Positions 47,550-54,045 of a stretch of DNA of 64,000 bases are shown here, in pieces. This DNA comes from Acidimicrobiia bacterium. Lineage in GTDB: Bacteria; Actinomycetota; Acidimicrobiia; IMCC26256; PALSA-555. Position 1 is the stretch's first letter; every line of letters begins with the position of its first letter. The position numbers were made by a program, and so were the translations under genes. Under the pieces are notes generated by a model. The model was given only the letters and a program-made list of their open reading frames with translations, did not search any database and was not told the DNA's origin. The DNA is taken from positions 1 to 64,000 of the forward strand of contig DASZJD010000017.1 of NCBI GenBank assembly GCA_035948415.1, read 5' to 3'.

Positions 47550-48749
47550 TCAGCTGGCGCCGCGGCTCGCGAGCTCGAAGATGCGGGCCGTGCAGCCGCT
47601 CATCTCCACCGGCGGCAGCAGCTCCGTCGCCAGCCGGGTGGCGAGGGCTCGGAACGCCGCGCCGGCCGGTCCGTCGGGGCCGCGTCGCGCCACCGGGTCG
47701 CCGGCGTCCCCGCCCGCCGACACCGCGGGCTCGAGCGGGATCTGCGCGACCAGCGGCGCGCCGACGGCGTGGGCCAGGGTCTCGCCACCGCCTTCTCCGA
47801 ACACGGGGTAGCGCTCGCCGTTCGGGGCGACGAAGGCGCTCATGTTCTCGACGACGCCGAGCACCTTCAGGAAGGAGCGGTGGGCCATGTCCGCGACGCG
47901 CGCCGCGACCGTCTGGGCCGCCAGCGCGGGTGTGGTGACGACGAGCAGCTCGGTCTGGGGCAGCATGCGGGCCAGCCCCATCTGGATGTCGCCGGTGCCC
48001 GGCGGCATGTCGACGAGCAGGTAGTCGAGGTCGCCCCACCGGACGTCGTGCAGGAACTGCTCGACCGCCTTCGTGAGGATGAGGCCTCGCCACATGAGGG
48101 CGGTCTGCGCGTCGTCGACGAGGAAGCCCATCGACACGACCTTCAGACTCCCGGGCGGGCCGTGGGGCTCGAGCTGGTTGGGCACGACGACCGCGTGCGG
48201 GTGGATCTTGCCCTCCTCGCCGCTGAGGCGACCCTCGATCCCGAGCATGCGCGGGACGCTGAAGCCCCAGATGTCGGCGTCGAGCACCCCGACGGTCAGC
48301 CCTCGGGCCGCCAGCGCGAGGGCGAGGTTCACGGTGACGGTGGACTTGCCGACGCCCCCCTTCCCGCTCGCGACGGCCACGACCCGCGCCGACGCCGGCA
48401 CCTCGGTCGGCTCGGCCTCCTCGCGAGCGTTCCATCGGGCCCGCTGCATGGCCGCGGACTTCTGCGGTGCCGTCATCTCGCTGTACTCGACGCGGACGTC
48501 GGTGACGCCGGGCAGACCCCGGACCTTCGATTCGACGTCGGCCTTGATCTGGGTGCGCAGCGGGCAGCCGGCGGTCGTCAGCGCCACCTTCACCGTCACG
48601 GCCCCGCCGTCGTCGACCCCGATGTCGTCGACCATCCCGAGGTCCACGATGCTCGCGTGCAGCTCAGGGTCCGAGACGCCGGCGAGGATGCGACGGACGT
48701 CGTCCGGCGACGGGGCGCCAGCAGAACCAGGGGCAGGGGGTGGGCTCAT
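47550..48749 (-). CDS. mrp: Mrp/NBP35-type iron-sulfur cluster carrier ATPase
   Basis: Mrp/ApbC proteins carry Fe-S clusters to apo-proteins. The 399-residue product has an N-terminal MIP18-type domain (about 14-90, VSDPELHASIVDLGMVDDI) with Cys62, then the ATPase with Walker A VASGKGGVGKST (about 127-137) and DMPPGTGD. The CPxCG pair that bridges the cluster in many Mrp proteins is replaced by APNGE, which I recall is usual in actinobacterial Mrp. It is divergent from the SufR-like regulator, with ErpA beyond, so the three form an Fe-S biogenesis locus. Confidence 0.93.
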   Translation of the reverse strand: MSPPPAPGSAGAPSPDDVRRILAGVSDPELHASIVDLGMVDDIGVDDGGAVTVKVALTTAGCPLRTQIKADVESKVRGLPGVTDVRVEYSEMTAPQKSAAMQRARWNAREEAEPTEVPASARVVAVASGKGGVGKSTVTVNLALALAARGLTVGVLDADIWGFSVPRMLGIEGRLSGEEGKIHPHAVVVPNQLEPHGPPGSLKVVSMGFLVDDAQTALMWRGLILTKAVEQFLHDVRWGDLDYLLVDMPPGTGDIQMGLARMLPQTELLVVTTPALAAQTVAARVADMAHRSFLKVLGVVENMSAFVAPNGERYPVFGEGGGETLAHAVGAPLVAQIPLEPAVSAGGDAGDPVARRGPDGPAGAAFRALATRLATELLPPVEMSGCTARIFELASRGAS

Positions 48750-48771
48750 CACGGAATAAAACCAGTCTCCC

Positions 48772-48808
48772 TTGAAAATATGCCCCACGCGGGGTACCGT
48801 CAAGCCTG
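48772..48808 (+). promoter_or_regulatory. promoter of the SufR-like gene with palindromic operator
   Basis: TTGAAA (48772-48777) and TACCGT (48795-48800) are 17 nt apart, and the GTG start follows 7 nt later, giving a leaderless message. Between the two boxes lies CCCC-ACGC-GGGG (48783-48794), well placed for a repressor. The spacer is shared with the divergent mrp gene. Confidence 0.55.
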
Positions 48809-49482
48809 TGATCGACCTGGGCGTCCTGAAGGCCTTGGCCGACGAGACCCGGTACGCCGTCTACCGGGAGCTGGCGTCGTCGCCCGCCGCCCTGTCGGCC
48901 CCCGAGCTCGCCGATCGCCTCGGGGTCCACGCCAACACGGTCCGGCTCCACCTCGAACGGCTCCGCGACGCCGGCCTCGTGGACGCCGAGGCCGTGCACC
49001 GGGGGACGGTCGGCCGGCCCCAGCACCTGTACTTCCTCGCTCCGGGCGCGCCGAGCCTCGGCTTCGACCCGCCGGCGCACGCGCTGCTCGCCGGCCTCCT
49101 CGCCGCGCTGGCCGAGCGCGTCGGCGCCGACGTCGGCGACGCCGCCAGCACCGGCCGGGCCTGGGGTGCGGAGGCGGCGCATCGCACCAAGACCCGCTCG
49201 TGCGTGCGCGCCCTCGCGGCCGAGCTCGAGCGGCTCGGCTTCGAACCCGCCGTGGCACCCGGCGACGGCACGTCCGAGGGCGGGGTGCGGATCGACTTCC
49301 TGCACTGCCCGTTCCGCGAGCTCGCCGAGGCGTACCCGGAGCTGGTCTGCAACCTCCACCGAGGCCTGTGCGAAGGCCTCGTGGACGAGGTGGGCGGGGG
49401 AAGGGTGGAGGAGTTCGCCACGTTGTACGACCACGAGCCCTGCCACGTCACCGTTGACGCCGGCCGCCAAGACGACCGGTAG
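48808..49482 (+). CDS. SufR-like iron-sulfur-sensing HTH regulator
   Basis: Residues about 5-75 are an ArsR/DeoR-type winged helix (LKALADETRYAVYRELASSP and LSAPELADRLGVHANTVRLHLERLRDAGLV). The C-terminal part has Cys167, Cys181 and Cys212 in the pattern CPF-x11-C-NLH and PCHV, matching the cluster ligands of SufR, with an extra Cys188. SufR represses Fe-S assembly genes when its cluster is present. GTG 48808 is preferred over a TTG at 48772 because the promoter boxes end just before it. ErpA follows 21 bp downstream. Confidence 0.88.
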   Translation: MIDLGVLKALADETRYAVYRELASSPAALSAPELADRLGVHANTVRLHLERLRDAGLVDAEAVHRGTVGRPQHLYFLAPGAPSLGFDPPAHALLAGLLAALAERVGADVGDAASTGRAWGAEAAHRTKTRSCVRALAAELERLGFEPAVAPGDGTSEGGVRIDFLHCPFRELAEAYPELVCNLHRGLCEGLVDEVGGGRVEEFATLYDHEPCHVTVDAGRQDDR

Positions 49483-49503: not shown

Positions 49504-49860
49504 ATGTCGATGTTCCAGGTCACCGACGCCAGCCAGGTGTTCCAGCTCACCGACTCGGCCGCCGGAAAGGTCAAGACCCTCCTGGAGGCCGAGACCGGCG
49601 CCGAGCCGCTGGCGCTGCGCGTTGCGGTCCGCCCCGGCGGGTGCTCGGGCTACAGCTACGAGATGTTCTTTGACGGCGACATCGGGGACGATGACGTCCG
49701 CAGCGAGCACGCCGGCGTCCAGGTCGTGATCGACCCGGCGAGTTTCCAGCTCCTGAAGGGCGCGACCCTCGACTACAAGGACGGTCTGCAGGGCGCCGGG
49801 TTCGCGATCAGCAACCCCAACGCCGAGCGGTCCTGCGGCTGCGGGCAGTCCTTCTCGTAA
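49504..49860 (+). CDS. erpA: A-type iron-sulfur carrier (ErpA/HesB family)
   Basis: A-type carriers deliver Fe-S clusters to target proteins. The 118-residue protein has the three conserved cysteines: Cys47 in GGCSGYSYEM and Cys111/Cys113 in the C-terminal SCGCGQSF. GGAGGCGAAGCC before the ATG is a good ribosome site. It is co-directional with the SufR-like regulator and close enough to be in the same unit. A 10-bp terminator hairpin follows. Confidence 0.94.
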   Translation: MSMFQVTDASQVFQLTDSAAGKVKTLLEAETGAEPLALRVAVRPGGCSGYSYEMFFDGDIGDDDVRSEHAGVQVVIDPASFQLLKGATLDYKDGLQGAGFAISNPNAERSCGCGQSFS

Positions 49861-49898: not shown

Positions 49899-50030
49899 AC
49901 GTTCCTGATCGCGGGGTGAGCGCCGGTTGACGCGTCCAATCCTGTATCTGGCGACGTGATCGGGTTACGCTACGCGCAATCGCGTGATTCGTTGCCGAGC
50001 GTCCGCGCCGGCTTGAAGGGAGCGACGCCC

Positions 50031-50504
50031 ATGTCATCGACCTGGCCGCCTGGCCCGCCCTTGGGTGGGCCATCGACACCGCCGAGTCCGCCTCCGCCCC
50101 GCCCCTGGGAGCCGCCGACGCCGACCCCGGCACCACCCTCCCCGGCCGCCTCGAAGCCGGCGAAGAAACGAGCCGCCAAGAAGCGGGTCGCCAAAAAGCG
50201 GGTCGCCAAGAAGCGGGTCGCCAAGAAGCGCGTCGCCAAGAAGCGGCCGGCCAAGCGCAAGGCCGTCGCCAAGAAGCGGCCGGCCAAGCGCAAGGCCACG
50301 AAGAAGACGGTCAAGCGGGCCACCGGCCGCAAAAAGGCCACGAAGCGCGCCGCGACCAAGCGCAAGACCACACGCAAGCCCGCGAAGCGCAAGGCCACGA
50401 AGAAGCGCAAGGCCACGAAGCGCACCGCGACCAAGCGCAAGACGGCGCGCAAGCCCGCGAAGCGCAAGGCTACGAAGAAGCGCAAGGCCACGAAGCGGCG
50501 CTAA
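50031..50504 (+). CDS. histone-H1-like Lys/Ala/Arg-rich basic protein
   Basis: The 157-residue protein has a Pro-rich first 45 residues (PPGPPLGG, PPPPRPWEPP), then over 100 residues of almost only Lys, Arg, Ala, Thr and Pro. Within these, AKKRV repeats four times in a row, and a block of about 24 residues (ATKRKT..RKPAKRKATKKRKATKR) occurs twice in tandem. This is the composition of histone H1 tails and of the basic tails of mycobacterial HupB and Streptomyces HupS, but no HU domain is present. It likely binds DNA or RNA without sequence preference. A GGGAG site precedes ATG 50031. A strong terminator follows, so it is a single-gene unit. Confidence 0.8.
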   Translation: MSSTWPPGPPLGGPSTPPSPPPPRPWEPPTPTPAPPSPAASKPAKKRAAKKRVAKKRVAKKRVAKKRVAKKRPAKRKAVAKKRPAKRKATKKTVKRATGRKKATKRAATKRKTTRKPAKRKATKKRKATKRTATKRKTARKPAKRKATKKRKATKRR

Positions 50505-50565: not shown

Positions 50566-51426
50566 CTAGGCGCCCGGTGCCACCAGCGACTCGAGCAGTG
50601 GTGTGATCTCGTCGCGGCCGAACGCGCTGTCGAGCCGACCCCGGATGGTGCCGCCGCCGTCGACCGTGAAGAACCACGGCTCGAACGGGATGTTCCACGC
50701 CTGCACCGTGGGCGCCAGCGTGGTGCCCGAGTTCGAGGTGTAGATCTCCACATGGACGAAAGTGACCCGGCTCTCGAAGGCGCCACGAGTGGTCAGGAGC
50801 TCGTTGAGCACGGGCCCGCAATAGCGGGTCTGGCACAGCGCCGGCGTCGCGAAGAGCACCGCCACCGGGCGGCCGGAGCCGATCACGTCCGCCAGCGAGA
50901 CCGAGTGCAGCGGGCACATGGGCTGACGGGTGCAGATGGGGTTGACACCGAGCGGGTTCTGGGGCGTCGGGGATGGCGCCCGCGACGCGGCGCTGCCGAC
51001 CGTCGGGGCGGCGGCGGTCGCCTTGACGTCCAGGGACATGGGGAGGCGGTGCTTGAGGGTCAGGACCTCGCCCGGGTAGACGCCGGGCCGGTCCAGGACC
51101 GCCTCGACGACGTACACGCCCCGGCCCTTCGGCAGGCCCGCGCTCATCTGGCGCGCCGGCACGATCTGGCCCTGCGCCGATCCGGGAGGCGCCAGCGCGA
51201 GCTGGGCGGGGGCGCCGGTGGCCGGCTTCGGGCCGCGGTACACGGCGAAGGCGACACGTTGGGGCGCCGGCGAGGCGTAGAGGTCGTTCGAAACCAGCAG
51301 CGCGCTCAACGCGCTCGATGTCTCAGGCTGCGTAGCGCCCGCCGTGCGGGGCCAGCCGACTGCGCCGGCTAGCGCGAGCGCGCCCGTGCTGGCGAGGAAC
51401 GAGCGCCGGCTCGGGGTGTGCGCCAT
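50566..51426 (-). CDS. Tat-exported thioredoxin-fold protein, unknown function
   Basis: The N-terminus is a Tat signal (SRRSFLASTGALALAGAVG). After an immunoglobulin-like region of about 110 residues (VAFAVYRGPKPATG, GVYVVEAVLDRPGVYPGEV) comes a thioredoxin-like segment with VAVLFATPALCQTRYCGPVLNEL, a C-x4-C pair at the active-site position, and the FVHVEIYT and PFEPWFFTVDGGGTIRGRL strands. It is probably a secreted redox or metal-handling protein. The start is divergent from the fused iron-sulfur protein at 51450, 23 bp away, and both may act in one process. Confidence 0.8.
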   Translation of the reverse strand: MAHTPSRRSFLASTGALALAGAVGWPRTAGATQPETSSALSALLVSNDLYASPAPQRVAFAVYRGPKPATGAPAQLALAPPGSAQGQIVPARQMSAGLPKGRGVYVVEAVLDRPGVYPGEVLTLKHRLPMSLDVKATAAAPTVGSAASRAPSPTPQNPLGVNPICTRQPMCPLHSVSLADVIGSGRPVAVLFATPALCQTRYCGPVLNELLTTRGAFESRVTFVHVEIYTSNSGTTLAPTVQAWNIPFEPWFFTVDGGGTIRGRLDSAFGRDEITPLLESLVAPGA

Positions 51427-51449: not shown

Positions 51450-53159
51450 ATGCCCGATCTGCAGCAGCTCGAGTTCGTCTGCAACGGGACTCGCCAGCGT
51501 GTGCCGGTCGCCGCCGGCGCCTCGCTGCTCGGGGTGCTCCGCGAGCAGTTGGGGCTTCGCTCGCTGAAGGACGGCTGTGCCCCCCAAGGGCAATGCGGCT
51601 GCTGCACCGTGCTCGTCGACGGTGACGCTCGGGTCGCGTGCGTCACCCCGGCGACCCGCGTCGCGGGCCGAAGGGTGACGACGCTCGAGGGGCTGGACCC
51701 GGCCCGCCGGTCGACGCTCGTCGACGCCTTCGTCGCCGCCGGCGCCTCCCAGTGCGGGTTCTGCACTCCTGGGATCCTGCTGCGAGCCGCCGCGCTCGTC
51801 GAGCGGGGCAAGACAGCTCCGAGCGACGTCGAGCGAGCCCTCAGCGCCCACCTCTGCCGGTGCACCGGGTGGCGCACCATCGTCGACGCGATCACCGGCG
51901 ACGTCAGACCCGAGGCCGGCCGGCGCCTATCGGCCGCCACGACGCGGGCGACGCTCGAGGGCGACACCCCGCAGCGGGTCGGGCCGGACGTTCCCGCGGG
52001 CGGCGGCGGCTTCGCCGAGGACACCGCACCGGCGGACGCGCTCGTGGCCGTCCCGGTCCCACCGAGCTCGACCGTCGACGGCGTCGAGGCCGCCGGGCTG
52101 CGCTGGGTCGTCGCCGAGACGCTCGGCGACGCCCGGTCGCGGGCCGGCACCCCGCCCGGTCGGCGCAGCCCGCGCGCGGACGAATCGCCGCTCCCGCTCC
52201 CCGCTCCGGTGCCGGGCGGCGTCCGGCTCACCACCAGCTGGGTCGAGCCGGCCTACCTGGAGCCGGACGCGGCGTGGTGCGAGCCCGGCGGGGAGCCGGC
52301 GTCCCCGCTAGCGAACGGCGGCGCGTTCGGCGGCAAGACCACTTCGGCTGCGCCGGCGGCGGCGCGGGAGCTGAGCGACCGGCTCGGTCGTGCCGTTCGC
52401 GTCGTGTACTCGCGCGAGGACACCGTGCGCCTCGGACCGAAGCGACCCCCGATCGCGGCGACCGCGGTCGTCCGCGACGGTGCCGTCTTCATCGACGGCA
52501 GCTACGCGGCGGCGCCGTCCGCGTGGCCGCCGGCACCCGATGTCGTGACGCTCCCAGTGCGCGAGCACTGGGCGAGCGTGCCGTGTCCGGGCCCGCCGAC
52601 CGACCCTGGCCTGCGCGCCTTCCCGCTCGCCGAGCGCACGGTGCTGCGGGAGGGCGCACTCGCGGCGGCCGGCGTCGACGGTGCGCGCTGCTGCGTCGGC
52701 GACCGAGTGGCCGGCGTCCGCCTCGCGACGGTCGCCGCCGCCCCCGAGGGCGGGCTTGCCGGCGCCCGAGTCGAGCTCGACGCCGCGGGTGGGCTGGCCC
52801 GGGTCGCGGTGCGCGTCGCCGGGGGTGACCCGCTCGACGAGGTCGTGCTGCGCTCCTTCTGCCTCGGGGCGACGCACATGGCCCTCGGCTGGGTCCTGAC
52901 CGAGGGCATCGCCGTGGACCCTGAGCGCGGCGAGGTGCTGGACCTCACCATCCGGTCCTTCGGGATCCTGCGGGCGCGGGCGATGCCACCGGTCGACCTC
53001 GACGTCGTCGACGAGGCCGGGCCTCCGTGCCCGGTCAGCGGGGCGGTGTTCGCAGCGGTCGCGGCCGCGGCGTGGGAGGCGATCAGCGGCGCCGAGGGTC
53101 GGCGGCCCGAGGCCTTCCCCACGCGTGCGACCCGGGCCGCGCGCGCCGCCCGGGGCTAA
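51450..53159 (+). CDS. xanthine-dehydrogenase-like fusion: two 2Fe-2S clusters plus reduced molybdopterin domain
   Basis: Residues about 1-155 are a complete CoxS-type small subunit: plant-type ferredoxin cysteines in GCAPQGQCGCCTVLVDG and second-cluster cysteines in QCGFCTPG and LCRCTGW. The rest resembles the XDH/CoxL large subunit but is only about 400 residues instead of about 750. GGAFGGK is present, then parts of the domain ending LGWVLTEGIAVDPERGEVLDLTI. Where active enzymes have the GVGE glutamate, this one reads PVSGAVF, so catalysis as in XDH is doubtful. A FAD subunit is not nearby. It is divergent from the thioredoxin-fold protein. Confidence 0.75.
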   Translation: MPDLQQLEFVCNGTRQRVPVAAGASLLGVLREQLGLRSLKDGCAPQGQCGCCTVLVDGDARVACVTPATRVAGRRVTTLEGLDPARRSTLVDAFVAAGASQCGFCTPGILLRAAALVERGKTAPSDVERALSAHLCRCTGWRTIVDAITGDVRPEAGRRLSAATTRATLEGDTPQRVGPDVPAGGGGFAEDTAPADALVAVPVPPSSTVDGVEAAGLRWVVAETLGDARSRAGTPPGRRSPRADESPLPLPAPVPGGVRLTTSWVEPAYLEPDAAWCEPGGEPASPLANGGAFGGKTTSAAPAAARELSDRLGRAVRVVYSREDTVRLGPKRPPIAATAVVRDGAVFIDGSYAAAPSAWPPAPDVVTLPVREHWASVPCPGPPTDPGLRAFPLAERTVLREGALAAAGVDGARCCVGDRVAGVRLATVAAAPEGGLAGARVELDAAGGLARVAVRVAGGDPLDEVVLRSFCLGATHMALGWVLTEGIAVDPERGEVLDLTIRSFGILRARAMPPVDLDVVDEAGPPCPVSGAVFAAVAAAAWEAISGAEGRRPEAFPTRATRAARAARG

Positions 53160-53196: not shown

Positions 53197-53337
53197 GTGC
53201 CCGGCGCCATCATCCTCGTGCTCGGGATGGTGCTCGCGGTGCCCGTCGGCGTGATGCTGGTCGGCGCCCTGTGGAGCGCGGTCTTCGGCTGGCTCGAGAG
53301 CAAGCAGGCGGACGCCCAGAGCCCCGACGGCGCCTGA
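53197..53337 (+). CDS. single-helix small membrane protein
   Basis: The 46-residue product consists of one transmembrane helix (GAIILVLGMVLAVPVGVMLVGALWSAVFGWL) and a short acidic tail. GTG 53197 is preceded by GGGAGG and by TACCTT 6 nt upstream, so the start is well supported despite the size. I do not know a function. The gene is convergent with the glnR-like gene. Confidence 0.6.
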   Translation: MPGAIILVLGMVLAVPVGVMLVGALWSAVFGWLESKQADAQSPDGA

Positions 53338-53346
53338 GCGGCGCGG

Positions 53347-54045
53347 TCAGCCGCCCGCGAGTCCGCGGGTGTGCCCGAACCGGTAGCCCACGGACCGCAC
53401 GGTCTGGATCCAGCCCGCGTGCTCCTCGCCGAGCTTCGCGCGCAGTCGCCGCACGTGGACGTCCACGGTGCGGGCACCGCCGTAGTACTCGTAGCCCCAC
53501 ACGCGCGACAGCAGCTGCTCCCGCGTGAAGACCTTCCCCGGGTGAGTGGCGAAGAACTTCAGCAGCTCGTACTCCATGTACGTGAGGTCGAGCGGCCGGT
53601 CGCCGAGTCCGGCCTGGTAGGTCTCGAGGTTCAGAACCAGGTCGCCGTACTCGACGATCTCGGGCCGCGCCCCCCGCCCCGTCCGCCAGAGGAGGTGCCG
53701 CAGCCGAGCCTCGAGCTCACGCGGGTGGAAGGGCGAGAGGCAGAAGTCGTCGAACAGGTCCTCGCGCAGCTCGAGCTCAGCCAGCTGGGCTCCCGAGGCG
53801 AGGAGCAGCACCGGCACGAGGTTCGCGTCGCGCCGGCACAGCGCTCGGCACATCCCGAACGCACCCTCTGGGTCCTCGTCGCACACCACGACCGCGCCCG
53901 CCCACCCCTCGCGGGGCTCGGCCTGCGTGGCTGCCGAGACGTTGACCGCCGCCTTCCACCGGTAGCCGGCGAGGTCGAGGGTCTGGACGAGCAGGGGCGG
54001 CGGTGGGTCCGGGAAGACCAGAAGCGGCTCGAGCATGTCCATCAC
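53347..54045 (-). CDS. glnR: GlnR-like OmpR-family nitrogen regulator
   Basis: The 232-residue protein has a divergent receiver domain (about 1-120) with an Asp in VVVCDEDPEGAFG but no clear lysine of the phospho-site (CLSPFHPRELEARL instead), and an OmpR winged helix with LTYMEYELLKFFATHPGKVFTREQLLSRVWG and TVDVHVRRLRAKLG, matching GlnR of Streptomyces and mycobacteria. GlnR controls glnA, amt and other nitrogen genes without classic phosphorylation. Its end of frame overlaps the glnA2 stop. Location beside two glutamine synthetases supports the call; a different OmpR regulator is the alternative. Confidence 0.82.
   Translation of the reverse strand: MMDMLEPLLVFPDPPPPLLVQTLDLAGYRWKAAVNVSAATQAEPREGWAGAVVVCDEDPEGAFGMCRALCRRDANLVPVLLLASGAQLAELELREDLFDDFCLSPFHPRELEARLRHLLWRTGRGARPEIVEYGDLVLNLETYQAGLGDRPLDLTYMEYELLKFFATHPGKVFTREQLLSRVWGYEYYGGARTVDVHVRRLRAKLGEEHAGWIQTVRSVGYRFGHTRGLAGG

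Follow-up and report, generated by a model that had tools for sequence, protein, structure and literature searches.

The short gene and its neighbourhood

The window, by which we mean the whole 64,000-nucleotide stretch of Acidimicrobiia DNA analysed here, contains an open reading frame with exact boundaries that encodes a 569-residue protein (Table 1). The Pfam domain Fer2_2 (PF01799) matched this protein with 76.1 bits against a cut-off of 30.3 (E-value 2.3e-21), and three further Pfam matches stayed under their cut-offs: Fer2, MoCoBD_1 (51 of 244 positions around the GGAFGGK motif, 1.3e-5) and MoCoBD_2 (the final 81 of 283 positions, 0.0057). The best NCBIfam model was TIGR03311 (selenium-dependent xanthine dehydrogenase), which at 150.4 bits did not reach its cut-off of 830.45 and whose best stretch covers positions 2–141 of 848. 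An initial annotation had described the protein as a CoxS domain fused to a large-subunit remnant of about half the normal size that keeps GGAFGGK, and our comparison bears out both points: the large-subunit part measures ~414 residues versus roughly 700 in the fused parents of 854–883 residues, and GGAFGGK occupies residues 290–296. It had also remarked that FAD-subunit and maturation genes are not nearby, and neither PF00941 (FAD subunit) nor PF02625 (XdhC/CoxI) matched on the window's contig (C17); matches to both are present on other contigs of the same genome.

Among the 84 loci whose surroundings were compared, the short gene is linked to genes of iron-sulfur metabolism, namely IscA (80 loci) and Mrp (72 loci), and glnA1 was found in 69 loci, in its usual orientation in 67. 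SufB/D-type genes sit on another contig. A link of the short gene to the response regulator or to glnA was considered and rejected as unspecific, both occurring with or without the short gene. The gap between the IscA stop and the short-gene start could be measured in 78 loci, where it is approximate because the start codons of the relatives were guessed: it is –41 to 111 bp in 27 loci, contains the Tat-signal gene in 44 (772–3860 bp), the window likewise showing no tight spacing, and amounts to 757–2434 bp in the remaining seven. RidA was detected in 71 of the 84 loci; in 64 it follows the short gene in the same orientation and begins no more than 250 bp away, distances being counted from BLAST match ends and not from stop codons, and in one locus (L139) it overlaps the short-gene match. 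Most of the loci therefore have the short gene placed between IscA and RidA. The window's own locus gave no RidA match, and three PF01042 matches lie on other contigs of its genome. The Tat-signal protein of the window carries CPLH and CQTRYCG motifs and looks thioredoxin-like by eye. Between the IscA and Tat-signal genes, 49956–50504 (+) encodes a lysine/alanine-rich repeat protein with, by eye, a histone H1-like tail and with no Pfam match. A SelA gene (PF03841; 45080–46804, –) also lies near the locus, and 14 of the 84 loci have SelA on that side too.

Table 1. Features of the window around the short gene, and the longer relative in family f21 (last row).
Feature	Position	Strand	Evidence and occurrence
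Mrp/NUBPL Fe-S carrier NTPase with FeS_assembly_P domain	47550..48803	–	72/84 loci, same orientation in 72/72
Winged-helix regulator with Cys-rich C-terminal half, presumably SufR-like	48772..49482	+	HTH_20; 39/84 loci
IscA/ErpA-type Fe-S carrier (PF01521)	49504..49860	+	80/84 loci, upstream on the same strand in 80/80
Divergent Tat-signal protein with CxxxxC motif	50566..51426	–	TAT_signal below cut-off; 49/84 loci
Short xanthine-dehydrogenase-derived protein, 569 aa (CoxS domain and shortened large subunit)	51450..53159	+	Pfam/NCBIfam profiles, alignment, AlphaFold2 model
CoxS-type domain, two predicted [2Fe-2S] sites	51450..51905	+	Fer2_2 above cut-off, Fer2 just under; structural match to 1rm6_C
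C43, C49, C52, C64, presumed plant-type [2Fe-2S] ligands	51576..51641	+	Present in 83/83
C102, C105, C136, C138, presumed ligands of the second [2Fe-2S]	51753..51863	+	Present in 83/83
GGAFGGK loop, retained	52317..52337	+	G291, F293, G294, K296 in 83/83
SRED...GPKRPP block, residues 321–334, retained with family-specific changes	52410..52451	+	K331, R332, P334 in 83/83
R389 (the Arg of parental FRGFG) and E395	52614..52634	+	R389 in 82/83, E395 in 83/83
PVSGA at the parental GVGE site, residues 528–532	53031..53045	+	Alignment
One-span membrane protein, 46 aa, just downstream	53197..53337	+	Profile matches in 64/84 loci
Winged-helix response regulator preceding glnA; the conserved block ends here on the right	53347..54045	–	71/84 loci
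Degenerate xanthine-dehydrogenase form of f21, GGSYGGK	L208:5041-6885	–	Also L217, L219

A conserved family under purifying selection

We searched 395 genomes of the window's class with residues 151–569 as the query and obtained matches in 252 at E ≤ 0.001. Strong matches (E ≤ 1.6e-21) occurred in 129 genomes, a number that includes contig-end fragments and one interrupted piece (G302), and the other 123 genomes gave weak matches (2.9e-15 to 9e-4); among the weak matches listed, several fall in frames of 862–985 residues. The G302 piece (G302:C47:7893-8354) is a short-gene fragment with an internal stop, possibly a recent loss or an assembly gap. A profile search of 396 genomes drawn from the phylum, the window's class included, gave 18 matches, all of them within the class, and the five short-form loci with a taxon name (L004–L008) come from Acidimicrobiia, Acidimicrobiales or Microthrixaceae. 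The gene of L004, an Acidimicrobiia record, is identical to that of G191, which belongs to the window's family, and this identifies the class as Acidimicrobiia.

Eighty-five loci (the five named and 80 fetched from class genomes) were inspected, and the frame was intact in 83. After setting aside L118 and L127 for a defective N-terminal frame and L120 as a duplicate of L004, we aligned 83 proteins, the window's counted, of 507–643 residues (median 541); these lengths are approximate because the start codons of the 82 relatives were guessed, as the last Met ahead of the iron-sulfur motif where one is present. All eight iron-sulfur cysteines are invariant, as are the core residues of the GGAFGGK and KRPP motifs and E395 (Table 1), and GG[AG]FG[GAS]K is found in 76 of the 83, the other proteins reading A at the first G. 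Across the 14 closest pairs dN/dS was 0.10–0.34, with dS above 2 in two pairs and one C-terminal ratio undefined, and the large-subunit part was about as constrained as the iron-sulfur part. The short form is thus a conserved family under purifying selection. The initial annotation had counted a decaying gene still under selection among its options and had proposed a homologue search to tell whether the short architecture is shared. A chance motif is likewise ruled out by the 83 aligned proteins that have this architecture in common.

Loss and remodelling of the molybdenum site

Losses and gains were mapped by aligning the 83 short proteins against a set of 12 long fused enzymes. All 83 short proteins have the TEMGQG block and the parental VWDDRDQ deleted, 82 also have GQTTGSR deleted, and most of the hammerhead region is missing. 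The GQG and QTTGSR loops are where molybdenum hydroxylases bind much of their molybdopterin dinucleotide. A loose pattern for GQG matched eight of the 83 proteins, and we rejected these matches as retained motifs, since the alignment lacks the homologous block in all 83.

What is left of the site has been remodelled. In the SRED...GPKRPP block, parental His residues are replaced by G329 and P333, and the column of E395 holds Gln in 12/12 parents and Glu in 83/83 short proteins. The initial annotation had considered the catalytic glutamate lost. This holds for the motif, as the window reads PVSGA and GVGE is present in none of the 83 proteins, but not for the column as a whole: position 531, which aligns with the GVGE glutamate, is Asp in 72 proteins, Gly in five, Met in two and Ala, Glu, Leu or Val in one each. 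An acid therefore occupies the old Glu column in 73 of the 83 (Asp in 72, Glu in L166), the window is exceptional as one of the five with Gly, and the shorter acid in most relatives argues against calling the site simply dead. In the xanthine dehydrogenase of R. capsulatus, replacement of the GVGE glutamate lowers the rate at least 10^7-fold, according to PMC9966888. Forty-two large-subunit positions are conserved in at least 90% of the short family and in less than 25% of the parents (E170, Q175, G237, R238, E395 and L499 at 100%, C277 at 90%), some of them in weakly alignable stretches, and together they point to a new constraint. Going by its two putative [2Fe-2S] sites in the CoxS domain and its GGxFGxK loop, the short protein would belong to the xanthine oxidase family, and going by the GVGE glutamate, the GQG and QTTGSR loops and the cofactor synthesis apparently missing in 15 hosts (see below) it would probably not be a working enzyme of that family.

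An AlphaFold2 model, computed from 26 input rows (the window's protein, five short proteins, 12 long enzymes and eight CoxS stretches), had a pLDDT of 87.4 and a pTM of 0.90. VIA-align superposed almost the entire chain on two known structures: 523 residues on 4yrw, the xanthine oxidoreductase of rat (Z 24.7, rmsd 2.8), and 528 residues on 1sij, the aldehyde oxidoreductase of D. gigas (Z 24.2, rmsd 3.0, 22% identity). The CoxS domain matched 1rm6_C (Z 21.9, 148 residues, rmsd 1.9). In the model, the deletions would leave a compact core with a xanthine-oxidoreductase-type fold, towards which the long rows in the input may have biased it.

Origin from fused molybdenum hydroxylases

The short form shares its domain order and CoxS part with fused CoxS+CoxL hydroxylases of the TIGR03311-like type (L011, L012, L014, L016 and L017), and also GGAFGGK, PKR(H/P)P and an HMGLG/HMALG helix, at 29–32% identity. 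These enzymes are the nearest long clade in the tree, but at 856–883 residues they retain TEMGQG, QTTGSR and GVGE, whereas the short form is without all three. Small iron-sulfur subunits of the CoxS/XdhC type, with which the short form shares eight cysteines and Fer2_2, normally relay electrons from the molybdenum cofactor (Moco) to FAD; the short form differs from them in that its contig is without a FAD subunit and its Moco site is not intact. The Desulfovibrio aldehyde oxidoreductase (MOP; 1sij/1dgj) is, like the short form, a flavin-free single chain with two [2Fe-2S] sites, but has 907 residues versus 569 in the window's protein, and PMC10223205 describes it as carrying Mo-MCD with Glu869 near the molybdenum.

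In a quick tree of 55 rows that used 38 of the 83 short proteins, a branch with SH-aLRT 99 sets these 38 apart, and their neighbours are the fused enzymes of full length. Read from alignment and tree, the family evidently consists of monophyletic deletion derivatives of a fused CoxS+CoxL (~860 residues) molybdenum hydroxylase of the xanthine-dehydrogenase type that have kept both [2Fe-2S] sites. A longer relative was matched in all four f21 genomes searched (AN INTERMEDIATE; loci L208/L216, L217, L218+L221 and L219); three of the genomes have it as an intact frame (624, 663 and 745 residues) and the fourth as two pieces. The sequence from L208, a long branch in the tree, joins the short clade at SH-aLRT 100. 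Like the short form, the f21 form has the GQG/QTTGSR block deleted and, in L208, lies between IscA and RidA; unlike it, it still has some of the hammerhead, and its motif is GGSYGGK. At its GVGE site a Glu is aligned in two of the four sequences (VDE, LDE) and not in the other two. The simplest order of events would be that the cofactor-loop block was lost first and the hammerhead afterwards.

Molybdenum-cofactor genes in the carriers

MoaA (PF06463) was found in 300 of the 395 class genomes, the window's included (MOCO INDEPENDENCE). Nineteen of the 129 carriers of the short gene were without MoaA, 15 of them in genomes with a completeness of 91% or more (crossed by eye). In these 15 no MoeA (PF03453) was found, five of five comparison genomes being positive, and 13 of the 15 gave no full-length MoCoBD_1 protein either; the inference that they have no Moco rests on MoaA, MoeA and MoCoBD_1. 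In the two exceptions, G028 with three long MoCoBD_1 matches and G302 with eight, the absence of MoaA and MoeA may reflect assembly gaps. Eleven of the 13 Moco-less carriers belong to one family (f32), so that independent cases are few, namely f32, G243 and G298. The f32 genomes listed with MoaA (G306, G347, G353 and G384) had no short-gene match, which is the reverse of what would be expected of a Moco enzyme. The window's genome has MoaA, MoeA, XdhC and real hydroxylases.

Loci without the short gene

The comparison set consisted of 30 genomes that lack the class-wide short form; G004 and G010 among them carry the f21 form. IscA was matched in 29 of the 30 (25 strongly, four by weak matches only); IscA is thus itself a core gene, and IscA and the short gene are not lost together. 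Of 20 IscA loci from this set, 13 have RidA downstream: eight with 13–222 bp to IscA, that is, with an empty site, the intermediate L208, and four with other inserts. The IscA-RidA pairing therefore exists independently of the short gene. In L198, L199, L207, L209, L210 and L211, where the short gene is absent, 13–21 bp separate the IscA and RidA match ends. Frames of at least 150 residues between IscA and RidA in L197, L202, L212 and L214 included none that looked short-form-like by eye, and a search of the 20 non-carrier loci for the iron-sulfur and GGxxGGK motifs matched only L208. The one-span protein accompanies the short gene in 64 of 84 loci and was found in two of the 20 non-carrier loci, a difference biased upwards by the profile having been built from short-gene loci. 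Because parts of the block of Mrp, IscA, RidA, response regulator and glnA occur without the short gene, its position may be inherited.

Discussion

We consider that the short protein may be a Moco-free redox or Fe-S-handling protein with two [2Fe-2S] clusters, coupled to the A-type carrier IscA, and give this role a probability of roughly 40%. IscA would load the clusters of the short protein, or exchange electrons or clusters with them, while what remains of the large subunit, newly conserved residues included, would serve as a docking or ligand platform and not as a molybdenum site; the one-span protein may tether the short protein to the membrane. The carriage of the gene by 129 of 395 genomes, the eight invariant cysteines, the loop deletions, the hosts apparently without Moco and an IscA that, where found, is always upstream would all fit this role. 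Several observations would weigh against it. The acid at the Glu column, GGAFGxK and Arg389 are kept, for which a pure electron carrier would have no obvious need. The gene is not lost together with IscA, its position is possibly inherited, and 44 of the 78 measured loci, like the window, have the Tat-signal gene and no tight spacing to IscA. Glu at the GVGE site in two of the four f21 sequences, the small number of Moco-less lineages and the G302 fragment would also speak against it. More tentative still is the corresponding history, in which a molybdoenzyme would have lost internal segments and had its pocket remodelled, ending up as a dedicated, Moco-free partner of IscA inside the IscA-RidA pair that much of the class now has, lineages with no MoaA or MoeA match among them.

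The main rival, which we regard as possible though rather unlikely, is that the remodelled pocket binds a new small ligand and that the two clusters supply or sense electrons, making the protein a new enzyme or a ligand sensor. Such a pocket would comprise GGAFGxK, KRPP, R389, E395, E170, Q175 and the Asp at the old Glu site, and RidA, which starts close downstream on the same strand in most loci, might handle a reactive imine or enamine product. The retention of several old pocket motifs while the cofactor loops were deleted and the 42 newly conserved residues both fit this possibility, and the Asp found in 72 of the 83 proteins at the old Glu column strengthens it and weakens the coupling to IscA; however, RidA adjoins IscA in eight loci that have no short gene and is absent from the window's own locus, and the window has Gly in place of Asp. 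Less probable again would be a membrane-tethered electron-transfer module unrelated to Fe-S assembly, which by way of the one-span protein would carry electrons between the membrane and either a soluble dehydrogenase or the CxxxxC protein exported by Tat. The co-distribution of the one-span protein and the divergent Tat-signal protein seen in 49 of the 84 loci are in its favour, but neither neighbour is universal, and by eye the short protein has no signal peptide, so that it should be cytoplasmic and the Tat protein outside.

The initial annotation had offered three roles, an electron-transfer protein, a cofactor carrier or a decaying gene. A putative electron-transfer role is compatible with our results and is the one favoured, and the other two fared worse. 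A carrier or chaperone that serves the cell's other molybdenum hydroxylases with Moco or molybdopterin would explain why GGAFGxK is retained, and the window's genome does have the synthesis genes and the hydroxylases for it; as a general role it is nevertheless contradicted, because the short gene occurs in 13 nearly complete genomes in which no MoaA, MoeA or full-length hydroxylase was found (15 lack MoaA and MoeA) and because the two cofactor loops, GQG and QTTGSR, are deleted. At most it might hold as an additional role in particular lineages, and we think it very improbable. The absence of GVGE and of half of the domain, the two of 85 loci without an intact N-terminal frame (L118 and L127) and the G302 fragment with its stop might suggest a pseudogene in decay or an assembly artefact. 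For the family, decay is refuted by relatives that share the short form with 83 open frames of 507–643 residues, by dN/dS of 0.10–0.34 and by the fixed gene order, and an explanation of this kind can hardly be credited.

A search of the open-access literature found no conserved Moco-free derivative of the xanthine oxidase family. The short family may be regarded as a natural experiment on what remains of a molybdenum hydroxylase once molybdenum goes, and it carries a warning for annotation, as GGAFGGK alone does not prove a Moco enzyme. Should a link to IscA hold, the short protein would count as an unrecognised component of iron-sulfur metabolism in Acidimicrobiia.
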